Positions 8,130 through 44,778 of a DNA stretch of 64,000 bases are shown here, piece after piece. How positions within the stretch are numbered: position 1 is the first letter of the stretch; every line of letters starts with the position of its first letter. The translations under genes were made by a program, and so were the position numbers. The notes beneath the pieces were generated by a model, which saw nothing but the letters and a program-made list of their open reading frames with translations, was not told the DNA's origin and did not search any database. Origin of the DNA: Lacinutrix sp. 5H-3-7-4 (GTDB lineage: Bacteria; Bacteroidota; Bacteroidia; Flavobacteriales; Flavobacteriaceae); NCBI RefSeq assembly GCF_000211855.2, contig NC_015638.1:2515001-2579000 (forward strand), read 5' to 3'.

Positions 8130-8130
8130 G

Positions 8131-28560: not shown

Positions 28561-29064
28561 ATGAAACCAAAAAATAGTAAAGAAAGACGAAGTGCATTTT
28601 TTAAGTTTTTAGCACTTTTTGTAATAACTATGTTAGCCATACTATTTGCAGTATACTTTAATTTTAAAGTGCCAAACCAAGAAAACACCTTACTTAAAGC
28701 TCAGGTAAAATCTGTAGAAAAAGAAATGGAGTTTCAAAATAACTTTTCTAAAGAAATGAGTGAAATAAAACGCATGATAGACTCTTTAGATGTACCAGGA
28801 CAAAATTTACCATATCAAAACTCAAAAATAAGTGAAAAATTAGTAGAGTTACAAAAAACAATACCAACAAAAGACTCTACGTTTAGGTACGATATGTATA
28901 GTAATATTGTAGCAACATATGTTAATTTACAACAATCTGAAGGCGAATTAATAGATTTAAACGATGCTAAAAGTACAATAGAAGAATATCAAACAGCATT
29001 AGAAAAATGTAGAAACGAATTAAAACAAGCCGAACGCGACTTATATATCGCCAGAGGAAGATAA
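28561..29064 (+). CDS. tssO: TssO, T6SS transmembrane component
   Basis: A 167-residue protein with one membrane helix (about residues 14-34) and a long predicted coiled coil with conserved Arg/Glu spacing up to the C-terminus. This matches TssO of Bacteroidota T6SS in size and topology. It is the last gene of the plus-strand T6SS operon and is followed by a hairpin terminator. Confidence 0.8.
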   Translation: MKPKNSKERRSAFFKFLALFVITMLAILFAVYFNFKVPNQENTLLKAQVKSVEKEMEFQNNFSKEMSEIKRMIDSLDVPGQNLPYQNSKISEKLVELQKTIPTKDSTFRYDMYSNIVATYVNLQQSEGELIDLNDAKSTIEEYQTALEKCRNELKQAERDLYIARGR

Positions 29065-29175: not shown

Positions 29176-30024
29176 ATGCTTAAAAAAGTATTTGGAAGCG
29201 CCGTTTTTGGTGTTGATGCCACAACCATTACTGTAGAAGTTAATGTAGACTCCGGCATTGGTTATCATCTGGTAGGCCTTCCAGATAATGCTATAAAAGA
29301 AAGTAATTATCGTATAGCTGCAGCATTACAAAATAATGGTTATAAAATTCCTGGAAAAAAAATAACTATAAATATGGCACCTGCAGATTTACGAAAAGAA
29401 GGTAGCGCGTACGATTTAACACTAGCTATAGGTATTTTAGCCGCATCAAAACAAATAAACGCACCAAATTTAGAACGCTACTTAATAATGGGAGAATTAT
29501 CTCTCGATGGTAGTTTACAACCTATTCGAGGTGCACTACCAATAGCAGTTAAAGCTTTAGCCGAAGGTTTTAAAGGTTTTATATTACCATCTCAAAACGC
29601 TAAAGAAGCAGCAATTGTAGAAGGTCTAGAAGTCTATGGAATAGATAATATTAAACAAGTAATAAACTTTTTTGATAAAGATGAAGCAATCCCACAAACC
29701 ATAATAAATACAAAAGAAGAATTTGAAAAAAGTTTAAACTACCCAGAGTTTGACTTTAGTGATGTTAAAGGTCAAGAATCTATAAAACGCTGTATGGAAA
29801 TTGCTGCTGCAGGAGGACATAACATTATTTTAATAGGACCGCCAGGTGCAGGTAAAACTATGCTAGCAAAGCGATTACCAAGTATACTACCACCAATGAC
29901 TTTAGACGAAGCATTAGAAACTACTAAAATACATTCTGTAGTAGGTCGCGTAAAAGCAGATACAGGTATTATGGCCCAACGTCCATTTAGAAGTCCTCAT
30001 CATACCATATCTAATGTAGCTTAA
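29176..30024 (+). pseudogene. comM: comM 5' part, cut by the mobile element
   Basis: The 282-residue open frame covers the N-terminal lon-protease-like (ChlI) half of a YifB/ComM-type Mg-chelatase-like ATPase and the Walker A region (GPPGAGKTMLAKRL, about residue 220). It then reaches HTISNVA and stops two bases into the mobile element. ComM is a hexameric branch-migration helicase used in natural transformation. The missing C-terminal half lies at 43654-44347. Without excision the protein lacks Walker B and the sensor regions and is presumably inactive. Confidence 0.92.
30016..30020. other. Left attachment core (attL)
   Basis: GTAGC at the left end is the only common block with the right end (43649-43653) apart from two nearby A bases. 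Joining comM through this core restores AAT-GTA-GCA-TTA (Asn-Val-Ala-Leu) in frame. A short shared core is normal for large serine recombinases, which exchange at a central dinucleotide. Confidence 0.85.
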
Positions 30025-30077
30025 ATAGTTGCGGGGGTTACCGTAAATTTATATATTTGACTAACAAATTCCACTCA

Positions 30078-31835
30078 ATGTTAGCAGTATATATAAGACT
30101 TTCAAAAGAAGATGATAGCTCTAATTCAATCAATAATCAATTGAGAGAGGCTAAGGAATACATCGAAACTAACTTAATTAAGAAGTATAAAATTTATAAT
30201 GAAGGAGAGGGGTTTTCTGGTACTCTTAGAGTTAAAGAAAGACCTCAACTTAGTAAATTAATGAAAGACATTGATTCTGGTGTTGTTACGTCTGTATGGA
30301 TGCGTAAACAAGACAGACTTGCAAGACTTGGTATGACTGTTTTACAATTCGCAGATTCCATAGTTAAAAATGATGTAAACCTTTATTTTGGAGATAAAGG
30401 AGAGGTTGATTTGACAGACCCAATTCAAATGTTTCATATAACTGTTATGGCTGGGGTTGATGCTTTGAAACCAGCTCAACAATCTAAAGCAACAAGAAAA
30501 GCAATTAAAGATAATTTTGCAGAGGGTTTATCACACGGTAAAAGTACTTATGGTTTTACTAAGGATGTTAACAGAAAGATTATAAAAGACGATGAAGAAA
30601 GTAAAATTATTGAGTTAATATATAGTTTATCTCTTGAAGGAAATGGAACTCAAAAAATCGCTAATATTTTAAATGAAAAAGGTATCAAAACGCAATACGC
30701 AAAAATTGCAGAAAGATTTGAAAAAGAAAATATTCCTTTAGAATTAAGCAGTATTAAGCCTACTTATAAAGTTATTAATAAATACACTGGTAAACATACG
30801 GAATTAAACAAAGCTAATAGTAAATGGAAAGCTGGTACTATATATTCTATTCTAGTAAATAAACAATATATGGGTGTTAGAACTAGGAAAGAAAAGAAAA
30901 AAAATGAAATGGTATTTATTGAATATAAAAACATTCCAGTAATTATACAACCTCACATTTGGGAAAAAGTTCAAGTAAACCTTAAAAAGAATCGTAGTAA
31001 GTCGGGAAAAAAAGAAACATATAATTATTTATTGAAAGGACTTATTATTTGTGGTAGGTGTGGTCGTAATTATTATGGTCGTCATAGACCACCAAAACAA
31101 GGTCAAGCATATAGTAAGGATAATTATTATATGTGTAGTTCTAAACGTAATAAAGAAACTAATTGCGGTAATAGGAGCATAGATATAACATTCATTCAGG
31201 ATTTTATTTGGTTACGTTTTTTTAGATACAAGGAGCTTAACGAACTAATTAATAAACATTTTCAAGAAACTGACACAAAAGACGTTTTAAGCGGTTTAGA
31301 GCAACGTTTAAAGAAACTTAATAATAAGTTATCAAAGTATGATAGAGAGCGTCAAAACACTATCAAATTAAACGCTAAGGAGTGGATAACAATTGAACAA
31401 GCTGAACTAGATTTAAAACGTGTTAATAAAGAAGAAAATCAAACTAAAAGTGAGATTAGAAACGTAAAAGAGCAAATCGCTAATTATGGCAATTCAATAA
31501 GATTAAAGGAACAACAAAATGAACTAAATAACATTCAAGATAAGATTAGCTTTTTAGATAAGAAAGAACTGGTTAACAAGTACATTAAAGAAATTGTTAT
31601 CAATCATATTGACGATAAGAAATATTATGAGATTGTTATTAAGTTCAATATTGATATTGTTTCAGAAAAATATATAGTTACAACGTTTAAAAAAGAAGTC
31701 TTTAGAGTGGTAGATGGATTCGGAATATTCACGCATAAAATGGACTTAGAAACTTTAGAAGGTAGACACTTTACAAATCTTGAAAAAACTACTGTTCCAA
31801 AACTCAATAAATTAATATCTAATAACAAGGCTTAA
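30078..31835 (+). CDS. Large serine recombinase (integrase of the comM element)
   Basis: The 585-residue protein starts MLAVYIRLSKEDDSS, where the Ser is the expected catalytic nucleophile. It has the resolvase-type catalytic domain (about 1-145, with an R-x-x-R pair in RKQDRLARLG), then the recombinase domain (about 150-270). A zinc ribbon (CGRCGRNYYG, later CSS and CG) and a C-terminal coiled coil (about 400-500) follow. I prefer the ATG at 30078 because the family normally starts a few residues before the YIRxS strand; a TTG at 30057 would add 7 residues. It sits at the very left end of the element, where an integrase is expected. Confidence 0.93.
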   Translation: MLAVYIRLSKEDDSSNSINNQLREAKEYIETNLIKKYKIYNEGEGFSGTLRVKERPQLSKLMKDIDSGVVTSVWMRKQDRLARLGMTVLQFADSIVKNDVNLYFGDKGEVDLTDPIQMFHITVMAGVDALKPAQQSKATRKAIKDNFAEGLSHGKSTYGFTKDVNRKIIKDDEESKIIELIYSLSLEGNGTQKIANILNEKGIKTQYAKIAERFEKENIPLELSSIKPTYKVINKYTGKHTELNKANSKWKAGTIYSILVNKQYMGVRTRKEKKKNEMVFIEYKNIPVIIQPHIWEKVQVNLKKNRSKSGKKETYNYLLKGLIICGRCGRNYYGRHRPPKQGQAYSKDNYYMCSSKRNKETNCGNRSIDITFIQDFIWLRFFRYKELNELINKHFQETDTKDVLSGLEQRLKKLNNKLSKYDRERQNTIKLNAKEWITIEQAELDLKRVNKEENQTKSEIRNVKEQIANYGNSIRLKEQQNELNNIQDKISFLDKKELVNKYIKEIVINHIDDKKYYEIVIKFNIDIVSEKYIVTTFKKEVFRVVDGFGIFTHKMDLETLEGRHFTNLEKTTVPKLNKLISNNKA

Positions 31836-31885
31836 TTAAAGTTCCCATTATGCAAAAAATAACAGAAAATTAGATAAGTTGTTTA

Positions 31886-31926
31886 AATAGTATCAGCAAA
31901 GCATACATAATGTAAATGATACTATT
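31886..31926. promoter_or_regulatory. Perfect inverted repeat ending at a start codon
   Basis: AATAGTATCA (31886-31895) and TGATACTATT (31917-31926) are exact complements with a 21-base gap. The second arm ends directly at the ATG of the small gene at 31927. It could be an operator or an mRNA hairpin that hides the start. It also follows the integrase gene by 50 bases. Confidence 0.5.
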
Positions 31927-32094
31927 ATGAGTAAGAATAAATACACAACGAAATTTAAAATCAACATATCTATACACTTATCTAAAGCAAAATGGGTGAT
32001 GCTAAGTCTTTGTTTTATGTTAATGCTATTTAGATTTGATGAAGAGACTATAATTTCAATTTTAAAAGCTATAAAGGATATTTTACATAATTAA
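31927..32094 (+). CDS. Small membrane protein of the element
   Basis: An open frame of 55 residues: MSKNKYTTKFKINISIHLSK, then one hydrophobic helix (about 25-37), then an acidic/basic helix to the end. It is too short to assign. Its ATG directly follows a perfect inverted repeat, which supports a regulated small gene. Confidence 0.45.
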   Translation: MSKNKYTTKFKINISIHLSKAKWVMLSLCFMLMLFRFDEETIISILKAIKDILHN

Positions 32095-32403
32095 TTAGTA
32101 AATACTTTAGTAGTTCCTAAACTTAATATTTTAACAAGACTTTTTCCGTATTGTTCAATATGAATTATTGAATAAGTTAATATCTAAAAATAGGTTTTTA
32201 TAAAATTATTTAAATAAGAGTTTACTTTTTTGAATTATTACGTATACCTAATATAGAATAGTCCAACTATATCTTATTAGTAGTGAAAATTCATATAAAA
32301 GAATAAACTTTTAAAATTCCTCTTCCCTTTTTGGTTGCTCTTAAAGGGTTGGTGTAGAGGATAAAAGACACCTTAATAATTTAATTAAAGCACCAATGAT
32401 ATT
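32095..32403. promoter_or_regulatory. Intergenic leader with a long-range hairpin before the primase-like gene
   Basis: About 310 bases without a gene. At 32319-32360 a structured segment is visible: CCTCT (32319-32323) pairs with AGAGG (32356-32360), and CCCTTT pairs with AAAGGG inside it. It lies 44 bases upstream of the VirE-N gene. It might be a regulatory leader or part of a replication origin recognised by the downstream protein. Confidence 0.4.
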
Positions 32404-33744
32404 ATGATTAACAAATTTAAAAATGTAAAAAATCCAGTAGTAATAAATTCAATTGATATAAATGATATTTTAAATATTATAAAAATTGGAGATAGTAATT
32501 TAAGTATTATTAATTCAATTAGAACTTTAGGGAAATCAAATGTTTTATATGATGAACTTAAAACTACCAAATTACCAACATTCAGATTTAACTTTAGATT
32601 TGAAGGTAAAGCCACTAACAAAAATATTATAGAACCAACTGGATATATTTATCTAGATGTAGATAATTGTAATAATATTCAATTAGATAGTAATTATGTA
32701 TTTGCTTTTTGGAAATCGATTAGTAATACTGGTTATAGTGTTTTAGTTAAAGTAAATAATTTAAATATTAATAATTTTAAAGAAACTTACATCGCAATTG
32801 GTAAAGAGTTGAATATTAACTTAGATGAAAATGCTGGTAAGCCTTCACAACAAACAGTATTAAGTTATGACAAAGATTTATATCATAATTCTGATTCTTT
32901 AGTATTTGATGCAATTGATAAAAAGGTATCAAACGCTATTATTAAGAAAAAAGGGAGAAGAGGAATAACTACGAATGATACTTTTTCAGAAAGTTCAAAG
33001 ATTAGATTTGATAATATCAATGATTACTTTATCAATGATGAGGTTGGATATATTTATTTTAAAGAGGAAAAAGAAAATATTGCACAGCCTTTTATTCCTA
33101 AGCGTGTTGAAGCTGGTAAAAGAAATTCTACTATGTTTTATGTCTTAGGTCAATATGCATTACTTAATCCTACTGCTGGAGAAAGCTATCTAATTAGTTG
33201 GGCTAATACTATAAATAAAAATGTTATGTACCCTAGATTAAATGATAACGAACTTAGAGGGATTGTTAAAAGTGTTATTAAAAAACGATTAGAAAAAACA
33301 TTAGAATTAAATTTAAATAAGCCCAGAAGAATATTATTTAATCCAAATAAGAAAATGGAACAGAAAGAGAAAATGAATATAACTAATAAACTTATTGGTA
33401 AAGCTAAAACAGAAGCTACAAAGCAAGAAATATATAATATTATTGAAGATTGGAATTTTCAATTTTTAGGTAAAATAACACAAAAGAAAGTATCAGTTGT
33501 TTCTAATAAAAGTATTGCTACTGTAAAGCGTTATTGGAGTGATTTTAAAGCCTATATAAGCGACTTAAATAGTAATGTTGTAAAAACAGTTCCAAGCGTC
33601 AAAACTATGTCTAATATCTACTGTATTTCTAAAAGTTGTGATGTTGAAAAGTTTGTTAGTTATGAAAATTTGTTCCCAGATTCAACTAAATATTTCTACA
33701 ATAAAAATAAATTACCGTTATTGGATTTGTCTAGAGTTGCATAG
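32404..33744 (+). CDS. VirE-N/BT4734-type primase-like replication protein
   Basis: A 446-residue protein. The N-terminal 180 residues resemble the BT4734/BF3469 (VirE N-terminal) domain common on Bacteroidota mobile elements: a TFRFNFRFEG strand, then TGYIYLDVDNC with acidic residues, SNTGYSVLVKV and the SQQTVLSYD motif. A PriCT-like helical domain (about 240-300, GKRNSTMFYVLGQY) follows. The C-terminal part could bind DNA. It likely primes or initiates replication of the excised circle. Its 3' end overlaps the convergent resolvase gene by 14 bases. Confidence 0.75.
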   Translation: MINKFKNVKNPVVINSIDINDILNIIKIGDSNLSIINSIRTLGKSNVLYDELKTTKLPTFRFNFRFEGKATNKNIIEPTGYIYLDVDNCNNIQLDSNYVFAFWKSISNTGYSVLVKVNNLNINNFKETYIAIGKELNINLDENAGKPSQQTVLSYDKDLYHNSDSLVFDAIDKKVSNAIIKKKGRRGITTNDTFSESSKIRFDNINDYFINDEVGYIYFKEEKENIAQPFIPKRVEAGKRNSTMFYVLGQYALLNPTAGESYLISWANTINKNVMYPRLNDNELRGIVKSVIKKRLEKTLELNLNKPRRILFNPNKKMEQKEKMNITNKLIGKAKTEATKQEIYNIIEDWNFQFLGKITQKKVSVVSNKSIATVKRYWSDFKAYISDLNSNVVKTVPSVKTMSNIYCISKSCDVEKFVSYENLFPDSTKYFYNKNKLPLLDLSRVA

Positions 33745-34324
33745 CCTTTTTTACTTTCTGTACAGTACCAAGACTAACACCGCTTAATTTAGCAGTATTT
33801 CTTAATGATTGATTAGCTTTTAAATACTTTACAACTTGCTTATGTTTAGTAAGCAGTTGTTGAGCTGTTTCCTTACTTCCTTTTACACGTCCTTTATAAG
33901 TTCCGTTTGCTTTAGCAATTGCAATTCCTTCTTTTTGACGTTCTAAAAGTGTTTCTCTTTCCATTTCGCTAACGTTAGACATTACACTAATGATAAGCTT
34001 AAATACTTGGTTTGGCTTTCCGTTGGTTAGGCTTTCAATTCCTAAATTATCAACTTTTAGAGTTACATTATAACTATGAAATAATTCAATAGTTTGTAAA
34101 ATGTCTATTGTGTTACGTCCTAATCTATCTATACTGGAAACACTTATGAAATTAATACTAGCATCTTTAACAGCTTCAATAAGTTTCCTTGCTTGTTCAC
34201 GCTCAATAAAAGGAATAGAACCCGAAACAACGTCACTAAATAATAACTCGCTAGAAGTTGCTTTTGTAGTTTGTCTATCTAGATTTTGAGTTACTGTTGA
34301 GATTCTGTTATAACGTGCTTTCAT
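33731..34324 (-). CDS. Small serine resolvase/invertase
   Basis: A 197-residue protein with the resolvase catalytic domain: YNRISTVTQNLDRQ with the nucleophilic Ser, ISVSSIDRLGRNTIDI, and an E-R-x-x-L-L-E-R-Q-K-E-G segment. It ends in a helix-turn-helix (SLRNTAKLSGVSLGTVQKV). It is the Tn3/Hin size class and distinct from the 585-residue integrase. It probably resolves dimers of the element or inverts DNA. The repeats just upstream (34327-34480) are a plausible res site. Confidence 0.9.
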   Translation of the reverse strand: MKARYNRISTVTQNLDRQTTKATSSELLFSDVVSGSIPFIEREQARKLIEAVKDASINFISVSSIDRLGRNTIDILQTIELFHSYNVTLKVDNLGIESLTNGKPNQVFKLIISVMSNVSEMERETLLERQKEGIAIAKANGTYKGRVKGSKETAQQLLTKHKQVVKYLKANQSLRNTAKLSGVSLGTVQKVKKAMQL

Positions 34325-34626
34325 AATGTACTATTTTAAAGTTAAGCAAATATACATTTTATTGAAATAGTGTACTAATTTTAGGGTGGTTATTTTTAAC
34401 ACACTTTAAAGCCAGTGTTTATGTTATAAATATAAATGTTGGTGTGTCACGTTTAAAGTATAGTTTAAAAATAGTACAATAAGATTTATTGGTATTATTT
34501 GTTCAACTTTCCGTGATTATTGTTTTCATATACTAAAATAGGGGTGTGGGGTGTATAAATTATGCGTGTTAGCTAATGTTCAGACCATATATAAGCTTTG
34601 GTTAGAATCCCTACCTATATAGTACC
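34325..34626. promoter_or_regulatory. Candidate res site and intergenic region upstream of the resolvase
   Basis: TGTACTATTT (34327-34336) recurs in inverted, slightly altered form as AAATAGTGTACTA (34365-34377), and AAAATAGTACAAT lies at 34468-34480. Three degenerate copies over about 150 bases next to a resolvase gene fit the three-subsite layout of res sites. An AACACAC/GTGTGTC pair lies between the second and third copies. No gene is seen in the rest of this 302-base stretch. Confidence 0.45.
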
Positions 34627-35343
34627 CTACCAATTTTGTTCGAAATCTGTAATAATTGGATTATGGTCACTTAATTTCAACCAATGACTGGAATTACCAA
34701 CTTCAATTTTATTTAAAGTTTTTATAAATTCAGTACTACCGAATATGTAATCTATATGATAGGGTTTTGTTAGTTTTCTTTGAAGAAAAAAAGTAGGTTT
34801 TGATTCTTTGCCTTGCTCTTCATTAAAATACATATGATATAAGCTTTCAATTCCCAATTCACTTAATTCCTCAAGAACATCTGAATGATTCCACCACCTA
34901 TCCCATTTATCCCATATCTTATTGCTATTAAAGTCACCAAGAATTATACATTTTTTGAGGTTTGATTTATTAATTTGAAGATATTTCCAAAATTGACCAA
35001 TATACCCAAATGTTGGTGAGTTATTACTATGATTCCAAAGAGCCAATAAATCGAAATTATTATTTATTTTACAAGGAAGGAAATATTTTACTCTGTGGTC
35101 ATTATAATTTTCAGACCAATCGAGTTTTTTTAAATCTATATTTGGTTTTGCAAATACACCAACACCTTTATTTTTATTGTCTCCAATCCATAAATAATTA
35201 TCTGCCCATAATTTATATTCTTTATGATTAGATTTTAGAGGGTCTTCACATTCTTGAATTACATAAACCTCAGCATTCAAAGATGAAATTTCTTTGAATT
35301 TTTTTCTAAAAGCACCATTACAATTCCAAGTTATTATCCTCAA
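34627..35343 (-). CDS. Endonuclease/exonuclease/phosphatase-fold nuclease, last gene of the four-gene operon
   Basis: A 238-residue protein with all the hallmarks of the EEP fold: TWNCNG at the start (Asn ligand), QECED (metal-binding Glu), LWNHSN, LGDFNSN (Asp and Asn of the active site), YHIDYIF and a C-terminal SDHNPI (His). The active site looks intact, so DNA or RNA cleavage is likely. It begins 11 bases after the ATPase gene stop on the same strand, as the effector-like last gene of the operon that starts at 39340. Confidence 0.88.
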   Translation of the reverse strand: MRIITWNCNGAFRKKFKEISSLNAEVYVIQECEDPLKSNHKEYKLWADNYLWIGDNKNKGVGVFAKPNIDLKKLDWSENYNDHRVKYFLPCKINNNFDLLALWNHSNNSPTFGYIGQFWKYLQINKSNLKKCIILGDFNSNKIWDKWDRWWNHSDVLEELSELGIESLYHMYFNEEQGKESKPTFFLQRKLTKPYHIDYIFGSTEFIKTLNKIEVGNSSHWLKLSDHNPIITDFEQNW

Positions 35344-35354
35344 TTTTTATGTGT

Positions 35355-37043
35355 TTAATGTGTTGGTATATATTTTTGAAAATACTCTCTTAAGTTGTCA
35401 TCACAGATATATAAATAAGTCCCTTCAATACCTCTATACATTAGAGTTTTATAAATATTTATTATATATTCTTTCAATACTTCAATATCAGTAATGCCGA
35501 CTTTCCCTTTTGCGTCAAAATAGTTGTCTTTATGTACTGTTATCTTGTTTAAGATTTTATTATATCGTATTTCGTTTCCTAAAATTACGCCTCCATAATT
35601 TAAGTCATATCCTTGAGTAGTATGAATACATCCGATTTCATTTAATTCTGTAGCGCTATTAATCCAGTCGTGAGGAACTCGATTCCAAGTTAAGCCAATA
35701 CCATCAATCATAGCATCTGGAATATTATTTTTCTTAGATACCCACTTCCAACCATAACCAGCCATCATTCTACATAAACCATACTTTTTTTCTTTAATTT
35801 TTAATTCTTTTAACATCGTTGGTAGATGTGTAAAAATTTTCAAATTATAATTAGGGTCGTGAAATAATTCTTTTGATTCATCTAGTTTATTATGCAACAA
35901 TTCATCAATGAATTTAATATAGTCTACACCTCCCTTTGCTCTTAATTGAGATGTTAATTTAATTTTTTGTGTGTTTTTTAATGATTTTAATTTAGAGAAA
36001 TCACTACTCAAAATGTCACTTGGTCTTACTGATTGAGCTTGGTCATAAAAGAATAATTGATGTTTACTTCTAAGCATTATCCAATCTAACTCAGTTCCAT
36101 CAATTCCAAGTCCTAAAGTTCTGTTATTGTTATCGTGACTACCAAAATTTGTTATTCCTTTTCGTCTTCTCAATCTATGAGCTTCATCTACAATTAATAC
36201 ATCATATTCTTTTTTCAAAACATCCGAAGCACCAATAACCATACTTGGTTTTAATCCTTTTACATTCTTAAAGACTTTTTTAAGTGTCTTTCTTAGAGAA
36301 GCCATTGGAATAACTAAACCAATAGATAACTCCTTTTTTTCTTGTATTCTTTGAACTAATTCTAATTCTTCAATAGAGTCATTTTCTAAGTCCTCATAGT
36401 CTTCTAAATCAAACTTAGTTAATAATAGTTTCATTAAGTAAACAGCTAATATAGTCTTTCCAGTACCAGCAGAACCATCAACAAAAACAGTACTAGTTTC
36501 ATTTGAAAAAAGCACTTTTAAGTATTCCTTAATGGCTTTGTGTTGGTCACTTGTTAATGACTTATAAGGTGAATATTTAAATAAATCTGAATTATCAATT
36601 TCAAGAATATTCTTAGTGACTACTTTTTGTAATTTTAGATTTTCCCAGATGTTTTCGAATACATTAAAATACTTATCTTTTTGATAATAATTGTGTCCAG
36701 ATATTCCAGCATTACCATTTAATAAAACAAAGGTTTCATCGGCTACCATATATTTAATTAAATTTGATTCAATGTCTAAAGCAGCTGACTTGTTAAAGTT
36801 TTTACTAGAGATTATATATAAATATTTGAGCTTCTTTTTATCTGGATGAGATAAATGATTTGTCATTCTACTTATTGCGTTAGTTGACTCTCCAACATAT
36901 GCAATAGAAGTATTTAAATCGTATAAAATATAAACTATTGGATAAGAATTTTTGGTATAGAAATCTTCTTCAATTCTATTAATATATAATTTATCAAAAA
37001 GATATTTATTTACCGTAAAGTCTGTAGGTAGAAATCCATCCAT
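35355..37043 (-). CDS. GIY-YIG nuclease fused to a DUF2075-type ATPase/helicase
   Basis: A 562-residue fusion. Residues about 34-115 form a GIY-YIG domain (YPIVYILYDL, then AYVGES, R in AISRM, and E in LDIESNLIKY). Residues about 160-550 form a DUF2075-type P-loop ATPase: Walker A VDGSAGTGKT (about 188-197), Walker B VLIVDEAHRLRRR, LTSQLRAKGG, and a helicase-like motif with HTTQGYDLNYGGVILG. It would use ATP to recognise or remodel nucleic acid and cut it with the nuclease domain. It follows the MazG-like gene after 2 bases. A second DUF2075-type ATPase with a different nuclease lies at 40792-42261. Confidence 0.88.
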   Translation of the reverse strand: MDGFLPTDFTVNKYLFDKLYINRIEEDFYTKNSYPIVYILYDLNTSIAYVGESTNAISRMTNHLSHPDKKKLKYLYIISSKNFNKSAALDIESNLIKYMVADETFVLLNGNAGISGHNYYQKDKYFNVFENIWENLKLQKVVTKNILEIDNSDLFKYSPYKSLTSDQHKAIKEYLKVLFSNETSTVFVDGSAGTGKTILAVYLMKLLLTKFDLEDYEDLENDSIEELELVQRIQEKKELSIGLVIPMASLRKTLKKVFKNVKGLKPSMVIGASDVLKKEYDVLIVDEAHRLRRRKGITNFGSHDNNNRTLGLGIDGTELDWIMLRSKHQLFFYDQAQSVRPSDILSSDFSKLKSLKNTQKIKLTSQLRAKGGVDYIKFIDELLHNKLDESKELFHDPNYNLKIFTHLPTMLKELKIKEKKYGLCRMMAGYGWKWVSKKNNIPDAMIDGIGLTWNRVPHDWINSATELNEIGCIHTTQGYDLNYGGVILGNEIRYNKILNKITVHKDNYFDAKGKVGITDIEVLKEYIINIYKTLMYRGIEGTYLYICDDNLREYFQKYIPTH

Positions 37044-37045
37044 AT

Positions 37046-37375
37046 TTATAATTCATTATATTTTTTCGCAGTTCCTTTAGCTTTATTAACTGGATATTTT
37101 TTTGAGTTCTTGTCTATTTTTTTATTTATGATTTCGGAGATGTTTAAATTATGTTTTTCCGCTAATAATAATCCATAAGAGAAAACGTCTGCTAATTCTT
37201 CTTCTAGCTTTTCTTTATCACATTCTTCATTATCTTTCCATAAGAATAATTCTAATAGTTCGCTTGCCTCAATAGAAAGGGCTAAGGCTAAATCTTTTGA
37301 ATTGTGAAACTGTTTCCAATCTCGTTGGTCTCTGAATTCTATTAGTTTTTCAATTGTTTTATTAAGCTTATCCAT
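37046..37375 (-). CDS. MazG-like nucleotide pyrophosphohydrolase (dCTPase type)
   Basis: A 109-residue all-alpha NTP pyrophosphatase. It has FRDQRDWKQFHNSKDLALAL followed by EASELLE (first metal-binding E-x-x-E pair) and EEELADVFSY (second E-x-x-D). The RDWxxFH start is the mark of the dCTPase/RS21-C6 branch of the MazG superfamily. It would hydrolyse dNTPs to dNMP and pyrophosphate. In this operon it could deplete nucleotides during infection or remove modified phage nucleotides, which is inference. It starts 3 bases after the TPR gene. Confidence 0.9.
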   Translation of the reverse strand: MDKLNKTIEKLIEFRDQRDWKQFHNSKDLALALSIEASELLELFLWKDNEECDKEKLEEELADVFSYGLLLAEKHNLNISEIINKKIDKNSKKYPVNKAKGTAKKYNEL

Positions 37376-37378
37376 TTG

Positions 37379-39340
37379 CTATAATTTTATCATTGTTTGG
37401 GCTAACTTATATTCTTTATCAAATGGCATTTGCAAACTTTTTAGCATTTCTGGAATAGCTAAAGCCCAACTAGTATAATAATATGCTAAAGTTTTATAAC
37501 CGCTAAAACTACTGTTTTTTATTGATGGTATTGAATATCCCTTTTTATTCGGGTCAATTCCACCCATTCCAACAGTTGCAAGTTCAAAAGCAACTTTTTT
37601 TATTTCTTCCTTAGAATAATTCTCAAAATAATTTAAAGCATCTATCATATACATTACAACAGCATTATTAATGTCATCATTAGAATGTTCTTCTAGAAAT
37701 TGCTTCATTTTTCTGTCATTAGATGAAGTATTATCATCTAATCCGAAAGGGTCTTTATTTATCTCATCAATAACACTATCAATAGTTTTTTTCTTGTGTT
37801 CTAATTCGGGAATTAAATTGAAATAAGAATCAAATTTCACGTCCTCACCCCAATGTTGAATTAATTCATATTCCTCTCCTTCTTTTTTATCTGAGCGGTA
37901 TTCTAAGTATTCATTATAAAATTTGTTTGCTTGTTTTAATTCAAAACTTGTCGATTTAAAATCATTAATTAAATCAATAGAAAAAAGCATTTTAAAGTGT
38001 AAAGCATTTACTAGATTGTAGATTTTAGATATTGAAATAATCCTTTTAGGAAAATTTTCAATTATATCTTTCCTCGTTGTTGCTTCAATTCCTTCTTTAA
38101 CAAATCTTAACAATGATAAAAACTGTATAGGTTTTATTTCTGCAAATCTATTGTATATTCTATCTTCAATAAATAAATCAATGGGAGTATTAAAAACTTG
38201 GTTATTGATGCCATTAAAAAGGGAATCTATAAAGTTTTTAATGTTAGAATCTGGAATTCCTTTTTTTTCTAAACTTTTTGAAAACTTATTTAAAGAATGG
38301 TGAAATTTAGATTTATTGGAATCGTTAGTAGTAAATAAGAAATTCTCTTCAATACTTCTGGCTTCAAGAACAAGTTCAAGATGCTCAAGTTCGTGCAGTA
38401 CTAAATGACTTATAGATTCAAAATTAGGTTTGTATTTTACTAAATGAAAATCTTTATTATATACTTCAGCAAATTCAATCTTTGCAGCTGTATTAATCGA
38501 TTCATCGCTTATTATCTTAATTTTCTTCTCAGATTTATATGCTAATTCTGAAACAAATTTATTTATAATTTCATCTGCATTAAATTCCTCTGAATAGGCT
38601 TGAGCAGTTTCTATTGCCAATCTAAAAGCATTATTATATACGTCATCCTTTTTAGAGCAAAGGGATATTGTTTTAATAGCTAAATTAAACGCTTCTAAAT
38701 ATTCGGATGCTTTTTCTTTTATTAGTCCTAAAGCCAAATAAGTGTTAGGATAACTCGGATTAACTTCCTGTGCCTTAGTAAAATAATTTATTGCTTCTTC
38801 AGTTTTATCTATCTGCATAAGAACCGAACCAATATTATTAAGAGTAATATGATTTGTTGGAGTATATTCTAGGATTTGATTGTAATAAACTAAAGCGGTT
38901 TCAATATCTTTTTTATCCTTAACAAAAATATTACCCATCATTAATAAAGCCCATTCATTTTTTGGATTCCATTTAAGAGCGTCAATTAAAACATTTATAG
39001 CCTCTTCTTGCTCATCTAATTCTGAATATATTTGACCTAATAATCTATAATATTCAGATTCTGTAGGATATTCAGAAACTAATTTCTTAGCAAGAATTAA
39101 AGCATCCTCAAACTTTCCATTTTCGCAAAGACGTAATAATTGGTTATGTTTTTTTTCTTCAATTTCAACTTTGTTAAAGTCTAATTCAATTATTAAATAT
39201 TCACCTTCATCTTTAATATGGGGAACTATCGCACCAATTTTATAAAACTGTTTGATTTTATTTATTAGTATTGATTTATCATTTTCTTCATTAGAAAATA
39301 GTGTGTTCGAAAAATTATTAAAAGGAATTATTATAGTCAT
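37379..39340 (-). CDS. TPR protein with HExxH metallopeptidase-like domain, first gene of the operon
   Basis: A 653-residue cytoplasmic protein. Residues 1-60 are a small N-terminal domain. Residues about 62-235 hold five or so TPR repeats (for example PKNEWALLMMGNIFVKDKKD). After about residue 300 comes LVLHELEHLELVLEAR, a clear HExxH zinc-peptidase motif. A possible third ligand is the Glu in LFIEDRIYNR about 95 residues later. The rest is helical. TPRs could sense a partner or phage protein and gate proteolysis. Protease activity is predicted only from the motif. Confidence 0.8.
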   Translation of the reverse strand: MTIIIPFNNFSNTLFSNEENDKSILINKIKQFYKIGAIVPHIKDEGEYLIIELDFNKVEIEEKKHNQLLRLCENGKFEDALILAKKLVSEYPTESEYYRLLGQIYSELDEQEEAINVLIDALKWNPKNEWALLMMGNIFVKDKKDIETALVYYNQILEYTPTNHITLNNIGSVLMQIDKTEEAINYFTKAQEVNPSYPNTYLALGLIKEKASEYLEAFNLAIKTISLCSKKDDVYNNAFRLAIETAQAYSEEFNADEIINKFVSELAYKSEKKIKIISDESINTAAKIEFAEVYNKDFHLVKYKPNFESISHLVLHELEHLELVLEARSIEENFLFTTNDSNKSKFHHSLNKFSKSLEKKGIPDSNIKNFIDSLFNGINNQVFNTPIDLFIEDRIYNRFAEIKPIQFLSLLRFVKEGIEATTRKDIIENFPKRIISISKIYNLVNALHFKMLFSIDLINDFKSTSFELKQANKFYNEYLEYRSDKKEGEEYELIQHWGEDVKFDSYFNLIPELEHKKKTIDSVIDEINKDPFGLDDNTSSNDRKMKQFLEEHSNDDINNAVVMYMIDALNYFENYSKEEIKKVAFELATVGMGGIDPNKKGYSIPSIKNSSFSGYKTLAYYYTSWALAIPEMLKSLQMPFDKEYKLAQTMIKL

Positions 39341-39365
39341 TAAATTGTATTAATTTAGTAAAAAT

Positions 39366-39373
39366 CAAAGTTA
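39366..39373 (-). promoter_or_regulatory. Possible -7 box of the four-gene operon
   Basis: On the minus strand TAACTTTG fits the Bacteroidota TAnnTTTG -7 element. It lies 25 bases upstream of the TPR gene start. No good -33 TTG is seen at the usual spacing, so this is tentative. Confidence 0.35.
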
Positions 39374-39405
39374 ATTAAAATATACGTTTATATATATTAA
39401 ATCTT

Positions 39406-39543
39406 ATGTTTGATGACTATAAGAAAAATGATAATAGGTTATGGATGTTTAGAAATAGATATTTTAAACTCTTAGTTGTTGTATTATTAATATTTTTGAT
39501 AATTACAATTATTCTAGAACAGTTTTTCGATATAAAAATATAA
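39406..39543 (+). CDS. Single-pass membrane micropeptide A
   Basis: A 45-residue peptide: a charged N-terminus (MFDDYKKNDNRLWMFRNRYF) followed by one hydrophobic helix and the ending ILEQFFDIKI. It ends 3 bases before the SRAP gene. A related 35-residue peptide (WMFR-like DNA context, LTIILDKVLDIK ending) lies before the nuclease-ATPase gene at 40659-40766. That the same layout occurs twice in one island supports both as real genes. Confidence 0.55.
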   Translation: MFDDYKKNDNRLWMFRNRYFKLLVVVLLIFLIITIILEQFFDIKI

Positions 39544-39546
39544 CCA

Positions 39547-40275
39547 ATGTGCTTTCATAAATCATTAACCAAGAAACAAGAAGAGTTTAAGGAACGTTTC
39601 GATGCCGCTATGAAAGAATTAGATGTCTACGAACCATATTTCCATCGTAGCGGTTTTGAAGATAATTATATATACATTATCAAAGCTAATGAACCATATG
39701 ACATAGTGCCATCATATTGGGGGATAATGCCAGAAAATTATAATATTTATCAGCGAAAAGGGTTTCTTACGAAAACCAATACACTAAATGCAAGAAGTGA
39801 AAACCTGTTTACTTCTCCCTTATTTAAGGAACATATTAAAACGCAAAGATGTTTAATCTTAGCTGACGGTTTTTTTGAGCCACATACAAGAAATAAGATT
39901 TCTTATCCTCATTACATAAAATATAGAGATTCTAATTTATTTGCTTTTGCTGGTATTTATTCTGAATTAGATGATGGTTTATATACTGCTTCAATCATTA
40001 CAACTATTGCCAATGATTTTATGAAAGGAATTCATAATAAACCTTCAAGACAAGGAGATTATCGAATGCCATTAATTTTAGATAAATCCAATGAGGATGA
40101 TTGGTTAAATGGAAATCTATCTATTGATAGTATAAGAGAATTACTTTTTACTTTTACATCAAATGATTTGGTATCTTATCCAGTTACTAAGAATGTAATG
40201 AATTCTAATGTAAATAGTAATATAATTAAATCACTTGAACCAGTGCATTATGATGCACTTAATACTTTATTTTAG
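39547..40275 (+). CDS. SRAP/YedK-HMCES family protein (abasic-site DNA crosslinking)
   Basis: A 242-residue protein. It begins Met-Cys, and Cys2 is the residue that forms a thiazolidine with abasic DNA after Met removal. Other conserved parts are LNARSE, the DGFFEPH glutamate region, and YRMPLIL (Bacteroidota form of the H-x-RMP motif; here the His lies earlier, in GIHNKPSRQGDYRMP). It protects single-stranded DNA with abasic sites. On a mobile element it may act during replication of the element. A decayed second copy of its 3' end is found at 42659-42715. Confidence 0.9.
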   Translation: MCFHKSLTKKQEEFKERFDAAMKELDVYEPYFHRSGFEDNYIYIIKANEPYDIVPSYWGIMPENYNIYQRKGFLTKTNTLNARSENLFTSPLFKEHIKTQRCLILADGFFEPHTRNKISYPHYIKYRDSNLFAFAGIYSELDDGLYTASIITTIANDFMKGIHNKPSRQGDYRMPLILDKSNEDDWLNGNLSIDSIRELLFTFTSNDLVSYPVTKNVMNSNVNSNIIKSLEPVHYDALNTLF

Positions 40276-40279
40276 TTTA

Positions 40280-40553
40280 ATGATGAAAAGCTAAATTTTA
40301 AATAAATATTCAATTGAACGTTTTTTAAGACCAGCACAACAAATAATTTTACAAACATTAGCTGGTAGTGTTAAGTTTATCAATAGTGGTGTATTAGGTG
40401 GTAAAAGAAGCATTTCAAAATCAATGATATGATATATTAGAAGAAAAAATGTTGTTAGCAAATCATAGTATGCCTTCAACAATTGCTTCTATAAGCGAAA
40501 TAAATATAAAAGGTAAGGTTGTAAGAGCTTTTAATGAAGCTTCGGTGTTCTAA
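40280..40553 (+). pseudogene. Decayed gene directly after the SRAP gene
   Basis: The ATG at 40280 gives four codons and then a TAA (92-94 of that block). The same frame then stays open for 47 codons (KYSIERFLRPAQQIILQTLA region) to a TGA. Another frame continues with YDILEEKMLLANHSMPSTIA to the stop at 40551-40553. This looks like one small gene with a nonsense change and a frameshift. A further short frame (40534-40689) may be its continuation. No family recognised. Confidence 0.45.
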
Positions 40554-40658
40554 ATACGATTATAAAATTTTAATTAAACCTTTAACTACAAGTGAGAATT
40601 TTATTTATAACTTAGATTTATATAAGAAGATTATAGAAAGAATGACAATTAGCTTTGG

Positions 40659-40766
40659 ATGTTTCGTAGGAAATATTCAAAACTTATAATTTGGATTCTT
40701 TTAATAATATTAATTTTAACTATAATCTTAGATAAAGTTTTAGATATTAAGCTAAAACCTATTTAA
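40659..40766 (+). CDS. Single-pass membrane micropeptide B
   Basis: A 35-residue peptide starting MFRRKYSKL, with one hydrophobic helix and the ending ILDKVLDIKLKPI. It resembles micropeptide A (39406-39543) both in protein and in the DNA around the ATG (TTTGGATGTTT compared with TATGGATGTTT). It ends 25 bases before the nuclease-ATPase gene. A different frame overlaps its 5' part, so expression is uncertain. Confidence 0.45.
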   Translation: MFRRKYSKLIIWILLIILILTIILDKVLDIKLKPI

Positions 40767-40791
40767 CAAAACTAATCAAAAGCTAACCATA

Positions 40792-42261
40792 TTGAAAAAA
40801 GTAAATTTAATTTCGCTTGTACAATCTTACAAAAATCTTTCCAAACCTCTTTACGAAAAATATTGTTCATATTTTGGTGTAAAACCAAAATCTACAGAAA
40901 TGGATGATTTGAGTGTTTTTGCACATAATTTATTTAATGTAGAGCCTAATATTGAAATCTTGAAAGATTATTATTTTGGTTTCAATATACCGCAAATAGG
41001 AAAGGAGTTTGACTTGTTAAGGTTTGGAGAAAACTATAATATTAATATCGAATTAAAGAGTAAGAATACTGGAATTAAAATCAATAATCAATTAAAAAGG
41101 AATATGTATTACTTAGGTTTTTTAGGAACTGAAACCCATTATTATACTTTTGTATCAAGCGAGGAAAAGCTTTATAAATTAGATGATAACGATATGTTGG
41201 TTGAAAGTGATTTGAGAGAATTAGTAAAACTTTTAGAAGGACAAGTTTTAAAACAAATACCCAATGTTGATAATTTATTTAATCCGTCAAACTACTTAGT
41301 ATCTCCATTTAATTCAACAAAGAAGTTTATCAAAAACAAATACTTTCTCACGAACCAGCAAGAACAGATAGAAACTGAAATTATGAAAGCTTTAAGTAAA
41401 GGAAAAACAGCTTTCATATCAATTAATGGAAAAGCAGGAACTGGAAAAACTTTAGTTACTTATCATATTGCTAAAAAACTAATTAATAATAAAGAGAAAG
41501 TTTTGGTCGTCCATTGCGGTAACTTGAATAATGGGCATAAAGTTTTAAATGACAAATACGGTTGGGGTATTAAACCAGCCAAATTTTTAAGACATAATGA
41601 AATAAAGAATTATGATGTTATTATTGTAGATGAAACTCAGAGGATTTACCCATCGCAATTAGAAAAAATAATAAAATACACTAAAACTAACAATACTGTT
41701 TGTCTTTTTTCTTATGATAAATCTCAATGTCTACAGCAATGGGAAATAGATAACGATATTGAACAAAAAATAGAAGACCAAACATCTTCCAAAATATTCA
41801 ACTTAACCAAGAAAATAAGGACTAATAAAGAGATAGCTGCATTCATAGTCTCTTTATTAGATAAAGATGTTAATTTTAAAAGTAAAACTTCTAATATCGA
41901 ATTAAACTATTTTAGCAAAACAAAAGATGCAACCGTTTATATCAACCAATTAGGACAGGAGGGGTGGAAATTAGTAAACTACACACCTTCAAAGTATAAA
42001 ATGCCTTACGATAGGTTTAAGATATTTGGAGAGGATAGTACTCACGACGTTGTTGGTCAAGAGTATGAAGCGGTTGTTGCAGTTATTGACTCTCATTTTT
42101 ATTATGATGCTGATAATAATTTAGGTACTAAAGGATATTCTTCCTATTATCATCCAACAAAAATGTTATCACAAATAATGACACGAACAAGAAAGAAGTT
42201 AAGCATAGTTGTCATTGATAATGAGGAAGTTATGGATAGGTGTTTAGATATATTAAACTAA
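40792..42261 (+). CDS. PD-(D/E)XK-like nuclease fused to a DUF2075-type ATPase
   Basis: A 489-residue protein starting at a TTG. The N-terminal domain (about 1-170) has EFDLL (Asp74) followed by INIELKSK (Glu87, Lys89), the D...E-x-K pattern of PD-(D/E)XK nucleases. The C-terminal part has Walker A INGKAGTGKTLV (213-220), Walker B VIIVDETQRI and LTKKIRTN, like DUF2075/SLFN-type ATPases. It thus pairs the same kind of motor as 35355-37043 with another nuclease. It may be a single-gene defence effector. An upstream ATG is absent, and the first internal Met (at residue 37) would cut the domain. Confidence 0.8.
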   Translation: MKKVNLISLVQSYKNLSKPLYEKYCSYFGVKPKSTEMDDLSVFAHNLFNVEPNIEILKDYYFGFNIPQIGKEFDLLRFGENYNINIELKSKNTGIKINNQLKRNMYYLGFLGTETHYYTFVSSEEKLYKLDDNDMLVESDLRELVKLLEGQVLKQIPNVDNLFNPSNYLVSPFNSTKKFIKNKYFLTNQQEQIETEIMKALSKGKTAFISINGKAGTGKTLVTYHIAKKLINNKEKVLVVHCGNLNNGHKVLNDKYGWGIKPAKFLRHNEIKNYDVIIVDETQRIYPSQLEKIIKYTKTNNTVCLFSYDKSQCLQQWEIDNDIEQKIEDQTSSKIFNLTKKIRTNKEIAAFIVSLLDKDVNFKSKTSNIELNYFSKTKDATVYINQLGQEGWKLVNYTPSKYKMPYDRFKIFGEDSTHDVVGQEYEAVVAVIDSHFYYDADNNLGTKGYSSYYHPTKMLSQIMTRTRKKLSIVVIDNEEVMDRCLDILN

Positions 42262-42301
42262 ATCTAATAACTATTTAATTAATAATTAATAACGTAAAAA
42301 A

Positions 42302-42433
42302 TTTTTTTGGATTAGGAATATTTCTGCTGTAATATTTATTTCTGTATTTATAACTGGTTTGAATAATTTTATACCAGTTTTTTTGTTAATTTTAAAAAGT
42401 GATTCTAATTTGAATGTAGTTTTATTTGGTTAA
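42302..42433 (+). pseudogene. Fragment of a membrane protein
   Basis: In the 530-base gap before the secreted protein gene, a frame reads through hydrophobic helices (WIRNISAVIFISVFITGL, then FIPVFLLIL) to a TAA at 42431-42433. Another frame carries more hydrophobic sequence after it (TFLIIPIFYSLFIFLL). It has no start and looks like a frameshifted relic. Confidence 0.4.
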
Positions 42434-42658
42434 CATCGACTTTTCTAATAATTCCAATATTTTATTCACTTTTTATATTTTTACTAAAAGTGAGAGTAAA
42501 CGGGATATTATAAAAGAAAATACAATAGAAATATTTCGTTATTTCAAAGTGAAAAATATATTTTTTGTCTTTATGAAAATCAATTATTAGAGATTGTAAC
42601 TGACAATAGTTTTAATAAAATTTTAATATGGTTGAAAATAAAAAAGAAATAAAATTCG

Positions 42659-42715
42659 AATATAATTAAATCACTTAACCCAATTTTATTTTATGCTTTA
42701 ATTACCTTGTTTTAA
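42659..42715 (+). pseudogene. 3' relic of a second SRAP gene
   Basis: The frame reads NIIKSLNPILFYALITLF and stops, compared with NIIKSLEPVHYDALNTLF at the end of the intact SRAP gene (39547-40275). About 13 of 18 residues match and the stop lies at the same place. The rest of the gene is gone. It shows that the SRAP gene was once duplicated in this island. Confidence 0.7.
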
Positions 42716-42794
42716 AAATACGTAATTGTAAGTATTTTATTATTAAATATATTTTATTACATTTATTAGCTACTAATCGACAAACTAAACCAAT

Positions 42795-43619
42795 ATGAAA
42801 AAGCTTACATATTTATTGCTTTTATTTTCAACTTTTTGTTTATCTCAAGGCAATATTTTAAATGGTTCAACACCAGAAGAAATTGGAATTGAAATAGAAG
42901 AAGATGGCTCTTCACTTGAAGAAATAGAAGGTGATAGAGGGTTTGAAAATAATTCTTTTTTTATAGCAAATGTTAATTTTGAAAAATTTAATAAAACATC
43001 GGAATTTAATAATGATAATAGTAATTCCAATAATTCATTAAGTTTTGAAGATAGGACTTACATTAAAGGAGTAGGTATTGAGGCTTTTAGTAATGATTTG
43101 GAAAAACTTATTGGTAAAATAATAATAGTAGATGAAGATAAATCAATTTTAAGTTTAAGGTCATTTAAATTGGATAGTGCAGTTTTAAAAACTAGTAAAC
43201 CAAAATTTCAAGAAATTGAAGCACTTAAATATACAACAACTGATGACAAGAAATTAGGTTTTTTTATAAAGGCAGAATTAAAAGAAGATGAAATATTAGA
43301 ATATACTAGAACTGATATTTCTAGAATGGTTATTGGAGATAATGATATTAATTTTGATAAACTAAAGTTATCTTATCAAACTTTAAAATCTACGAAACCG
43401 TCAGCTATAATTAAAGTTGTTACTGGTGTTACAGTTACAGAAATAACTACAAGAGAATTTAAAAAAAGTAGTAGAGTTTTAAAAGCAAGCGGTTTTTCAA
43501 TTGCAACAAATGCATTTTCTTATGGTGATTACTTTTATATTACTAATGATAAGTTTAAGAGATTTTACAGAATAGGTTTATCAACTTTTGAAATAACTCC
43601 ATTATCATTTATAGATTAA
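42795..43619 (+). CDS. Secreted protein of unknown function at the right end of the element
   Basis: A 274-residue protein with a signal peptide (about residues 1-18, YLLLLFSTFCLSQG). An acidic, Asn/Ser-rich segment (about 25-80) is followed by a beta-rich domain. No known domain recognised. It is the last gene of the element, 30 bases before the right core. Such end-of-element cargo can change the host's surface or defence, but there is no direct evidence. Confidence 0.7.
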   Translation: MKKLTYLLLLFSTFCLSQGNILNGSTPEEIGIEIEEDGSSLEEIEGDRGFENNSFFIANVNFEKFNKTSEFNNDNSNSNNSLSFEDRTYIKGVGIEAFSNDLEKLIGKIIIVDEDKSILSLRSFKLDSAVLKTSKPKFQEIEALKYTTTDDKKLGFFIKAELKEDEILEYTRTDISRMVIGDNDINFDKLKLSYQTLKSTKPSAIIKVVTGVTVTEITTREFKKSSRVLKASGFSIATNAFSYGDYFYITNDKFKRFYRIGLSTFEITPLSFID

Positions 43620-43648
43620 TAACCCCATCAACTAATAAAACTACAAAC

Positions 43649-43653
43649 GTAGC
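43649..43653. other. Right attachment core (attR)
   Basis: GTAGC identical to the left core, followed at once by the second half of comM (ATTAGTTGGTGG). The base before the core is C here and T on the left; A occupies positions -2 and -3 on both sides. Confidence 0.85.
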
Positions 43654-44347
43654 ATTAGTTGGTGGAGGTAGTTATCCTCAACCAGGAGAAATCTCATTAT
43701 GTCATAATGGTGTTTTGTTTTTAGACGAACTACCAGAATTTAAGCGCGAAGTTTTAGAAGTTATGCGACAACCACTTGAAGATAGAGAGGTTACTATATC
43801 TAGAGCAAAATTTACAGTAACTTATCCATCATCATTTATGTTAGTTGCCAGTATGAATCCAAGTCCTAGTGGGTACTTTAACGATCCAGATTCGCCAATA
43901 ACGTCAAGTCCTGCAGAAATGCAACGCTATTTAAGTAAAATTTCTGGACCCTTACTAGATAGAATAGATATACATATAGAAGTTACACCTGTACCGTTTA
44001 ACGAGTTAAGCGATACACGTAAAGGAGAATCTTCAGTCGATATAAGAAAACGAGTAACAAAAGCAAGAGTAGTACAAACTAAGCGTTTTAAAAATTCGGC
44101 AACAGTACACTACAATGCACAAATGAATACAAAGCAAATAAATGAATACTGTGTGTTAGATGAAACTTCAAAACAATTATTAAAAACAGCAATGGAAAGA
44201 TTAAATTTATCTGCTAGAGCCTACGACCGTATTTTAAAAGTATCTAGAACCATTGCAGATTTAGAAGGAATCGAAAATATAAACGGAAATCACATTAGCG
44301 AAGCCATACAATATAGAAGTATGGATAGAGAAGGTTGGCTTGGCTAA
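43654..44347 (+). pseudogene. comM: comM 3' part, cut by the mobile element
   Basis: It continues the ComM frame with ALVGGGSYPQPGEISL, then the Walker B region (VLFLDELPEF), the arginine-finger/sensor region (RYLSKISGPLLDRIDIH) and the C-terminal Mg_chelatase_C domain. Together with 29176-30020 it gives 1539 bases, 513 codons including the stop, which is the normal ComM length. An internal ATG at 43715 could start a truncated product, but that would lack the ATP-binding loop. Confidence 0.92.
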
Positions 44348-44424: not shown

Positions 44425-44778
44425 ATGCCTAATCCAACAGGAATTATTACCGCTACAGAAGCACAAGAATTAAACGATAATTGGACAAACCTAAGAGCCA
44501 GTGCCAATAGAACAGCTGCAGGACAAGACGACAATAGGTCTTCTTGGTACTCATTAGAAGATATGGAAAATTTTCTACAACTAATTAAGGATGAAAACCC
44601 AACAGTAAATGGAGTTAGATTTTATCTTGGAGTTGAAACCACCAAACAAGATCCACAAGGTTTAACAACAATATTCATGGTTCCAACCGAAGAAAAAAAT
44701 GGAGAAAACGCAGATATAAGAGATGCAAACGGCATGGATAGAGGAAGTGTTGGTGGAGGTCGTTCTTATCCTCAATAA
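44425..44778 (+). CDS. NRSSW-motif protein A (unknown function)
   Basis: A 117-residue protein without signal peptide. It has DNRSSWYSLEDMENFLQLI, then GVRFYLGVE and TTIFMVPTEE, ending in SYPQ. The second copy at 45594-46100 has the same order of motifs (DNRSSWWSLQDIQDYI, GIRVYLGAYP, TMFIVPT, NYPQ at the end), although it adds an N-terminal membrane helix. Each copy is followed after 6 bases by a multi-pass membrane protein gene. The family is not one I can name. Confidence 0.75.
   Translation: MPNPTGIITATEAQELNDNWTNLRASANRTAAGQDDNRSSWYSLEDMENFLQLIKDENPTVNGVRFYLGVETTKQDPQGLTTIFMVPTEEKNGENADIRDANGMDRGSVGGGRSYPQ

Follow-up and report, generated by a model that had tools for sequence, protein, structure and literature searches.

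A MazG and GIY-YIG–Schlafen helicase operon in a Lacinutrix integrative element: a likely Nhi-like, protease-linked defence module

Relation to described nuclease–helicase systems

Nhi and AbiO are single-gene defence systems in which the protein that carries a Schlafen-group-3 (SLFN-g3, DUF2075-type) helicase is proposed to nick phage DNA and to unwind it; according to two reports, phage SSB triggers Nhi, which nicks and unwinds DNA (PMC12904381, PMC10732053). Here we describe a four-gene operon on the minus strand, at 34627–39340, of a 64,000-nucleotide stretch of the Lacinutrix sp. 5H-3-7-4 genome (contig NC_015638.1; this whole stretch is hereafter the window, and is part of a 3.3 Mb single-contig genome), carried by an integrative element. 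The operon is likely a Nhi-like, protease-linked nuclease–helicase defence module, whose defence activity, substrates, proteolytic gating and division of labour we infer. Judged from sequence, its conserved unit is not the set of four genes but a MazG-like nucleotide pyrophosphohydrolase (gene 2) together with a GIY-YIG nuclease fused to a SLFN-g3 helicase (gene 3).

The likeness to Nhi and AbiO lies in gene 3, a SLFN-g3 helicase with an N-terminal nuclease (Nhi's own nuclease family is outside this comparison), and in weak PADLOC matches, namely of gene 3 to AbiO (E = 9.8e-11) and of the helicase protein of a related locus, L022, to AbiO (1.5e-10) and Nhi (2.4e-09). However, both proteins match just part of these models, whereas a separate gene at 40792–42261 matches them over its full length, and the present module differs in having GIY-YIG at the N-terminus, MazG directly upstream in 95 of the 97 loci examined and a C-terminal LexA/UmuD-like Peptidase_S24 domain on the helicase protein in 92 of the 97.

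The combination of a nuclease with a protease is also found in Hachiman, AVAST and canu, where such pairs were reportedly acquired repeatedly by otherwise unrelated defence systems and consist of MBL-type nucleases with trypsin-like or caspase-family proteases (PMC12799240). In contrast, the module described here combines a GIY-YIG or an ELKQW-containing domain with predicted S24 or HExxH parts. Human Schlafen 11 (SLFN11) and gene 3 have in common a Schlafen-group-3-type superfamily 1 (SF1) helicase domain (PF09848), but SLFN11 is an animal protein. It joins this helicase to a nuclease of a different domain type and, to our knowledge, has neither MazG nor S24; PF09848 itself is, we assume, the former DUF2075.

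DefensePredictor places the NTP pyrophosphohydrolase domain (MazG) among its predicted, unvalidated defence domains, and its main text mentions none of GIY-YIG, DUF2075, S24 and Schlafen (PMC13092281); its predictions may still overlap with the present module. In PADLOC-DB 2.0.0 (2023) no specific model matched the core, as MazG of the window and of L022 gave no match and the helicase protein gave partial matches, the best being the value quoted above for the window and 7.8e-11 for L030. Full-text literature searches, in which bioRxiv and subscription papers were covered partly, yielded no paper pairing these domains, the hits of the broader searches being judged among the papers listed by title or opening of the abstract, and just one, unrelated by its listing, that contained both Schlafen and MazG; two further papers leave MazG and GIY-YIG unmentioned in the passages searched (PMC12839542, PMC12458937). 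A previous sequence-only reading of this DNA knew of no named system with exactly this gene set and had proposed the comparison with PADLOC models; the PADLOC comparison and the literature searched agree with it, and the core module, for which we found no name, is best read as undescribed.

The operon and its conserved core

In order of transcription, from 39340 to 34627, the operon comprises four minus-strand open reading frames (ORFs) with intergenic gaps of 3, 2 and 11 bases. Gene 1 (37379–39340, 653 amino acids (aa)) encodes a protein with TPR repeats and an HExxH motif (HELEH), a predicted zinc-metallopeptidase-like partner; gene 2 (37046–37375, 109 aa; PF12643, E = 2.3e-17) the MazG-like pyrophosphohydrolase of the dCTPP1/RS21-C6 type; and gene 3 (35355–37043, 562 aa) the GIY-YIG nuclease (PF01541, E = 6.9e-05, bit score 23.5 with the cut-off at 22.6) fused to the SLFN-g3 SF1 helicase (PF09848, E = 1e-59), an assignment made from both Pfam and fold, here without the C-terminal S24 domain. 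Gene 4 (34627–35343, 238 aa, TTG start; Exo_endo_phos PF03372, E = 4.2e-09) encodes an EEP-fold nuclease, a variable downstream add-on. The sequence-only reading had described the same strand, gaps and four products, with a dCTPase-type MazG and an intact EEP active site, and these claims are borne out by the ORF coordinates, the Pfam domains and the motifs given below.

The best solved relative of a MazG profile built from 15 rows is human dCTP pyrophosphatase 1 (E = 7e-26), closely followed by the bacterial-type pyrophosphatase 4qgp (9.9e-26), and the E..E and EE..D motifs of gene 2 at positions 36 and 59, which we take to be metal-binding, are intact, so that sequence and motifs both place it with the dCTPP1 type. 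That it depletes nucleotides is a guess. The catalytic machinery of gene 3 is likewise conserved, with Y49, G51, R59 and E92 of GIY-YIG and the Walker A and B residues invariant across 29 aligned helicase-protein rows, the window included. An AlphaFold2 model of gene 3 (mean predicted local distance difference test score (pLDDT) 82.3) retrieved SF1 helicases in Foldseek, with Upf1 first, human SLFN11 third (E = 1.7e-08, TMq 0.33) and RecD2 also found, at low whole-chain TM-scores.

To delimit the conserved unit, 296 genomes of the order were searched with gene 3, 17 of which, the window's own included, gave a match at E 1e-30, and a helicase profile scan of one genome per species (84,980 species) returned at least 585 confirmed stretches, which are stretches with a tblastn match rather than loci with the full architecture. 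The best 80 of these were kept and examined, giving, with 16 from the order search and the window, 97 loci; selected for their similarity to the helicase profile, they represent the nearer relatives of the helicase. ORF calling places MazG directly upstream of the helicase gene in 88 of them, and a three-frame search adds 7, in which MazG overlaps the helicase start or stops no more than 8 bases from it; the other two are L068, which has just 55 bases upstream, and L111, where 700 bases contain no MazG. Most often, judging by the ORF calls, the two genes overlap by 4 bases (51 of 97).

More distant GIY-helicase genes on Bacillota plasmids (L002–L004) had no MazG profile match in the stretches examined. 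When the window helicase was the only query, scans for close relatives yielded no confirmed match in genome contigs or viral contigs, nor did profile scans of viral contigs with the TPR and helicase alignments. A faecal scaffold named 'Bacteriophage sp.' (MT836409.1, positions 6469–8713) carries MazG paired with a GIY-YIG-Schlafen helicase, and neither the S24 nor the TPR profile matched there.

Beyond what the sequence-only reading had noticed, most relatives of gene 3 carry the S24 domain that the window protein lacks. A G-x-S-M serine motif is present in all 90 helicase-protein C-termini longer than 120 aa, and is preceded in most alignment rows by A-A-G, presumably the LexA/UmuD-type cleavage site. 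Five loci are without S24 by profile, namely the window, L021, L024 (gene in two ORFs), L059 (a 420-aa ORF) and L096 (match ending at the contig end), and no S24 remnant was found in six frames of the window element or of L021. On a quick helicase tree, from which rows under 540 aa were left out (2 of 97), the window groups with L021, a pairing to be read with care, as both are long branches that meet.

From these features, from the TPR-HExxH linkage and the known defence genes near the core described below, and from the AbiO/Nhi gene in the same element, we lean slightly towards reading the operon as an anti-phage module, cargo of the integrative element, in which the activity of the MazG and nuclease–Schlafen helicase core would be gated by proteolysis. 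The helicase would be loaded onto replication intermediates of the phage, a step that has been proposed for its relative Nhi, and the GIY-YIG domain would cut the phage DNA; phage DNA is the presumed target because of the analogy with Nhi. MazG might remove dCTP or 5-modified dCTP and thereby slow phage synthesis. Gating by proteolysis, suggested by analogy with the nuclease–protease pairs of other systems, would proceed in most relatives through the LexA/UmuD-like self-cleaving domain fused to the helicase and, in the window, where S24 is absent, perhaps through the TPR-HExxH protein, whose TPR arm may sense a partner. The EEP nuclease would be an exchangeable extra effector. The role of the TPR-HExxH protein is the weakest link of this mechanism. 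Should it hold, a LexA-like self-cleaving domain on a nuclease–helicase that is almost always next to a dCTPase-type enzyme would newly couple signals of the DNA-damage type to the destruction of phage DNA.

Variable partners of the core

A downstream gene of 120 aa or more is present in 88 loci; it shares the strand of the core in 63, being no more than 100 bases away in 25 of those, and is on the opposite strand in 25. The downstream genes are diverse, as the 54 that share the strand and lie within 500 bases form 46 BLAST clusters. From the 63 same-strand genes we chose 17 for Pfam searches, 7 from loci of the order and 10 of the closer and longer ones, and 13 of them gave a match, among which were a C5 methylase, MrcB_N-AAA_5, GmrSD, a reverse transcriptase (RT), AAA_21 (three), HNH_2, PAPS reductase, YhcG and a KAP NTPase. 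PADLOC, run on nine of the sampled downstream genes and one TPR-linked gene, identified a UG5-nitrilase RT (8.9e-210; L031, 5179–8538) and a DndC (1.4e-143; L070, 11272–12642, the PAPS reductase of Pfam), each directly downstream of the MazG-helicase module, and named a type II methylase, PDC-M62A and PDC-M01A among the genes run, with no match for L062.

It is possible, and we suggest it tentatively, that MazG with the GIY-YIG-Schlafen helicase-S24 protein forms a widespread immune module that is switched by proteolysis, either by LexA-like autocleavage, in most carriers, or, in a branch with the window, by TPR-HExxH in trans, and that plugs in ahead of many unrelated defence systems. If so, a cassette of two or three genes would join nucleotide-pool control, DNA cutting and proteolytic sensing of the damage type, and, given the number of stretches with relatives of the helicase, this as yet unnamed immune module may be common. 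As the core is found ahead of DndC, UG5 RT, McrB-like, GmrSD and further genes in the loci sampled, such plug-in immunity is directly testable.

The same neighbours would also fit a different role, in which MazG and the GIY-YIG-helicase-S24 protein are not themselves defence but a companion or regulatory module, such as an SOS-like switch or a back-up, that controls or guards other defence systems. The diversity of the next genes, several of them from known systems (DndC, UG5 RT, GmrSD, C5 methylase), and their placement within 100 bases on the same strand in 25 of 88 loci would be expected of such a module, and S24 domains are typical of damage-responsive switches. However, no helix-turn-helix or other DNA-binding model matched the helicase protein, the next gene points the other way in 25 of 88 loci, and the intact nuclease and helicase residues would be needless for a pure switch. 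We consider this alternative unlikely.

Upstream of the core, the TPR-HExxH gene is found directly before MazG in four of the 97 loci, namely the window, L021, L047 (a Flavipsychrobacter metagenome-assembled genome (MAG)) and L114 (a Flavobacteriia MAG), and beside the module in convergent orientation in L093; on the helicase tree the trait requires 4 changes for 5 rows. Searches starting from the TPR gene gave matches in 4 of 296 genomes of the order, 22 of 395 of the phylum, 2 plasmid records and, among phages, 1 full-length record and one weak partial match; 26 such TPR-first loci, among them the window and L021, were examined, with three fragmentary places of the phylum search left out. 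MazG adjoins the TPR gene in the window, L021, L134, L165 (a Marivirga plasmid on which the TPR and helicase ORFs are fragmented), L166 (a Hymenobacter plasmid) and L180. The gap between the two genes is -8 to +9 bases in L021, L047, L134, L166 and L180, and 3 or about 258 bases in L114, depending on the choice of the MazG start; since the adjacency recurs at short gaps in other loci, it appears to be more than chance. We rejected the idea that TPR-HExxH strictly replaces S24, as both are present in L047 and L114.

The Schlafen-type helicases of L134 and L180 have another N-terminal domain in place of GIY-YIG, with a shared ELKQW motif, and the nuclease part thus seems exchangeable. A sequence search with the L134 domain gave nothing convincing among solved structures, and a motif seen by eye suggests a D/ExK-type nuclease. 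L134 itself (PP438423.1), named Microcystis phage Mwe-JY31, appears plasmid-like, with Rep3, ParA and TraD-like genes, and carries TPR-HExxH, MazG and the Schlafen-type helicase in a row. The TPR-HExxH gene also heads other defence operons, a second point beyond the sequence-only reading: it precedes BrxA and BrxC of a BREX operon in L167, a helicase and a type IIG gene (PADLOC E = 0) in L141, and a 108-aa ORF and a DNA methylase gene in L169.

Within gene 1, HELEH begins at residue 316, and H316, E317 and H320 are invariant in all five homologues, a conserved HExxH. The AlphaFold2 model (from 4 sequences; mean pLDDT 78.4) has strands within 273–303, followed by a helix at 310–329 that holds HELEH, and no peptidase family matched gene 1 in Pfam.

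Gene 4 retains the motifs WNCN, QECED, GDFN, HIDY and SDHNP, which we take to be the catalytic motifs of EEP nucleases, and a sequence search found no relative among solved structures. EEP homologues occur in 15 of the 296 genomes of the order. Six EEP loci, of the 14 other genomes with a match, showed no MazG or TPR profile match and one marginal helicase match (L143, 18 bits). EEP was therefore rejected as a part of the core, being found in the window alone among the 97 core loci (BLAST, E 1e-5) and, in the six loci read elsewhere, without a MazG or TPR profile match, and is treated here, from its distribution, as exchangeable cargo. Accordingly, the four genes did not recur as a set among the 97 loci; what remains of the proposal of the sequence-only reading is a defence-type operon in a mobile element, in which we also find AbiO/Nhi, and not four genes acting as one unit.

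The absence of EEP beside the core in the other 96 loci would suit the view that cargo genes came to lie together by chance in the window, TPR-HExxH and EEP being unrelated neighbours of a genuine MazG-helicase pair, as would the 20 of 26 TPR-first loci in which TPR-HExxH stands without MazG (in at least 3 of these, L171, L177 and L184, the sequence stops no more than 200 bases past the TPR gene); however, TPR-HExxH lies directly before MazG in several separate lineages, even with a different nuclease domain, and we regard such a stack as improbable.

Several observations weigh against an anti-phage module with a proteolytically gated core. None of the other 96 loci shows AbiO/Nhi next to the core, and MazG adjoins TPR-HExxH in just 6 of the 26 TPR-first loci, 14 of which come from one genus in which MazG is never beside the TPR gene. 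S24 and TPR-HExxH are not mutually exclusive, which weakens the idea of a swap, and the fold search with the gene 1 model gave mainly TPR structures among the top 50 matches listed, so that its peptidase fold is unproven. The core often stands alone, given the loci with the next gene on the opposite strand, and, among the sampled downstream genes, the PLD and AAA_22 matches of L026 and L027 fall below Pfam's cut-off and 4 of 17 (L030, L041, L050, L062) have no Pfam match. A matched comparison of neighbour and control proteins from the same 14 genomes (100 of 146 and 100 of 222 sampled; L028 and L036, which are short contigs, ORFs under 120 aa, end-cut ORFs and module genes dropped) is weak evidence either way: PADLOC families matched at E 1e-15 numbered 114 for the neighbours vs 75 for the controls, a count of families and not of proteins, control proteins also had strong methylase matches (best 6.2e-115), and PADLOC holds many generic models.

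The surrounding element

The element extends over approximately 13.6 kb (30017–43653, boundaries read by eye around a shared GTAGC) and is inserted in a gene that we take to be comM/yifB, whose parts at 29176–30024 and 43715–44347 read ...HHTISNVA and NVALVGGG... and meet at the N-V-A codons. This split, together with a large serine recombinase inside (30057–31835, plus strand; Resolvase, Recombinase, Zn_ribbon_recom), upholds the location in a mobile element claimed by the sequence-only reading. The element also encodes a primase-like protein (32404–33744, plus strand; BT4734-like_N/PriCT_1 by Pfam, PADLOC RTasVirE-PriCT2 E = 2e-21), a small serine recombinase or invertase-like protein (33731–34324, minus strand; PF00239, E = 2.9e-22), and, transcribed divergently from the operon, an SOS response associated peptidase (SRAP) protein (39547–40275, plus strand; PF02586, E = 5e-45). 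Separate from the operon is the AbiO/Nhi single-gene defence protein (40792–42261, plus strand), which matches AbiO with residues 1–489 on model positions 1–468 (E = 1.7e-181) and Nhi with E = 3.5e-177; as this gene is full-length, one element carries two different Schlafen-type helicase proteins.

The operon could conceivably serve the element itself, in replication, repair or competition between elements together with SRAP and the recombinases, any effect on phages being a by-product, as it lies between the recombinase, primase-like and SRAP genes and a nuclease-helicase with a nucleotide hydrolase could act in DNA repair, but this is rather improbable, given that a variety of defence genes occurs among the core's neighbours sampled in other loci and that the element also carries AbiO/Nhi.

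Outside the element, two ORFs to the left of comM (27389–29064) appear to be TssK-like genes of Bacteroidota type VI secretion. Two similar small ORFs (44425–44778 and 45594–46100), which share a motif around RSSWxSLxD, follow shortly after the 3' part of comM.

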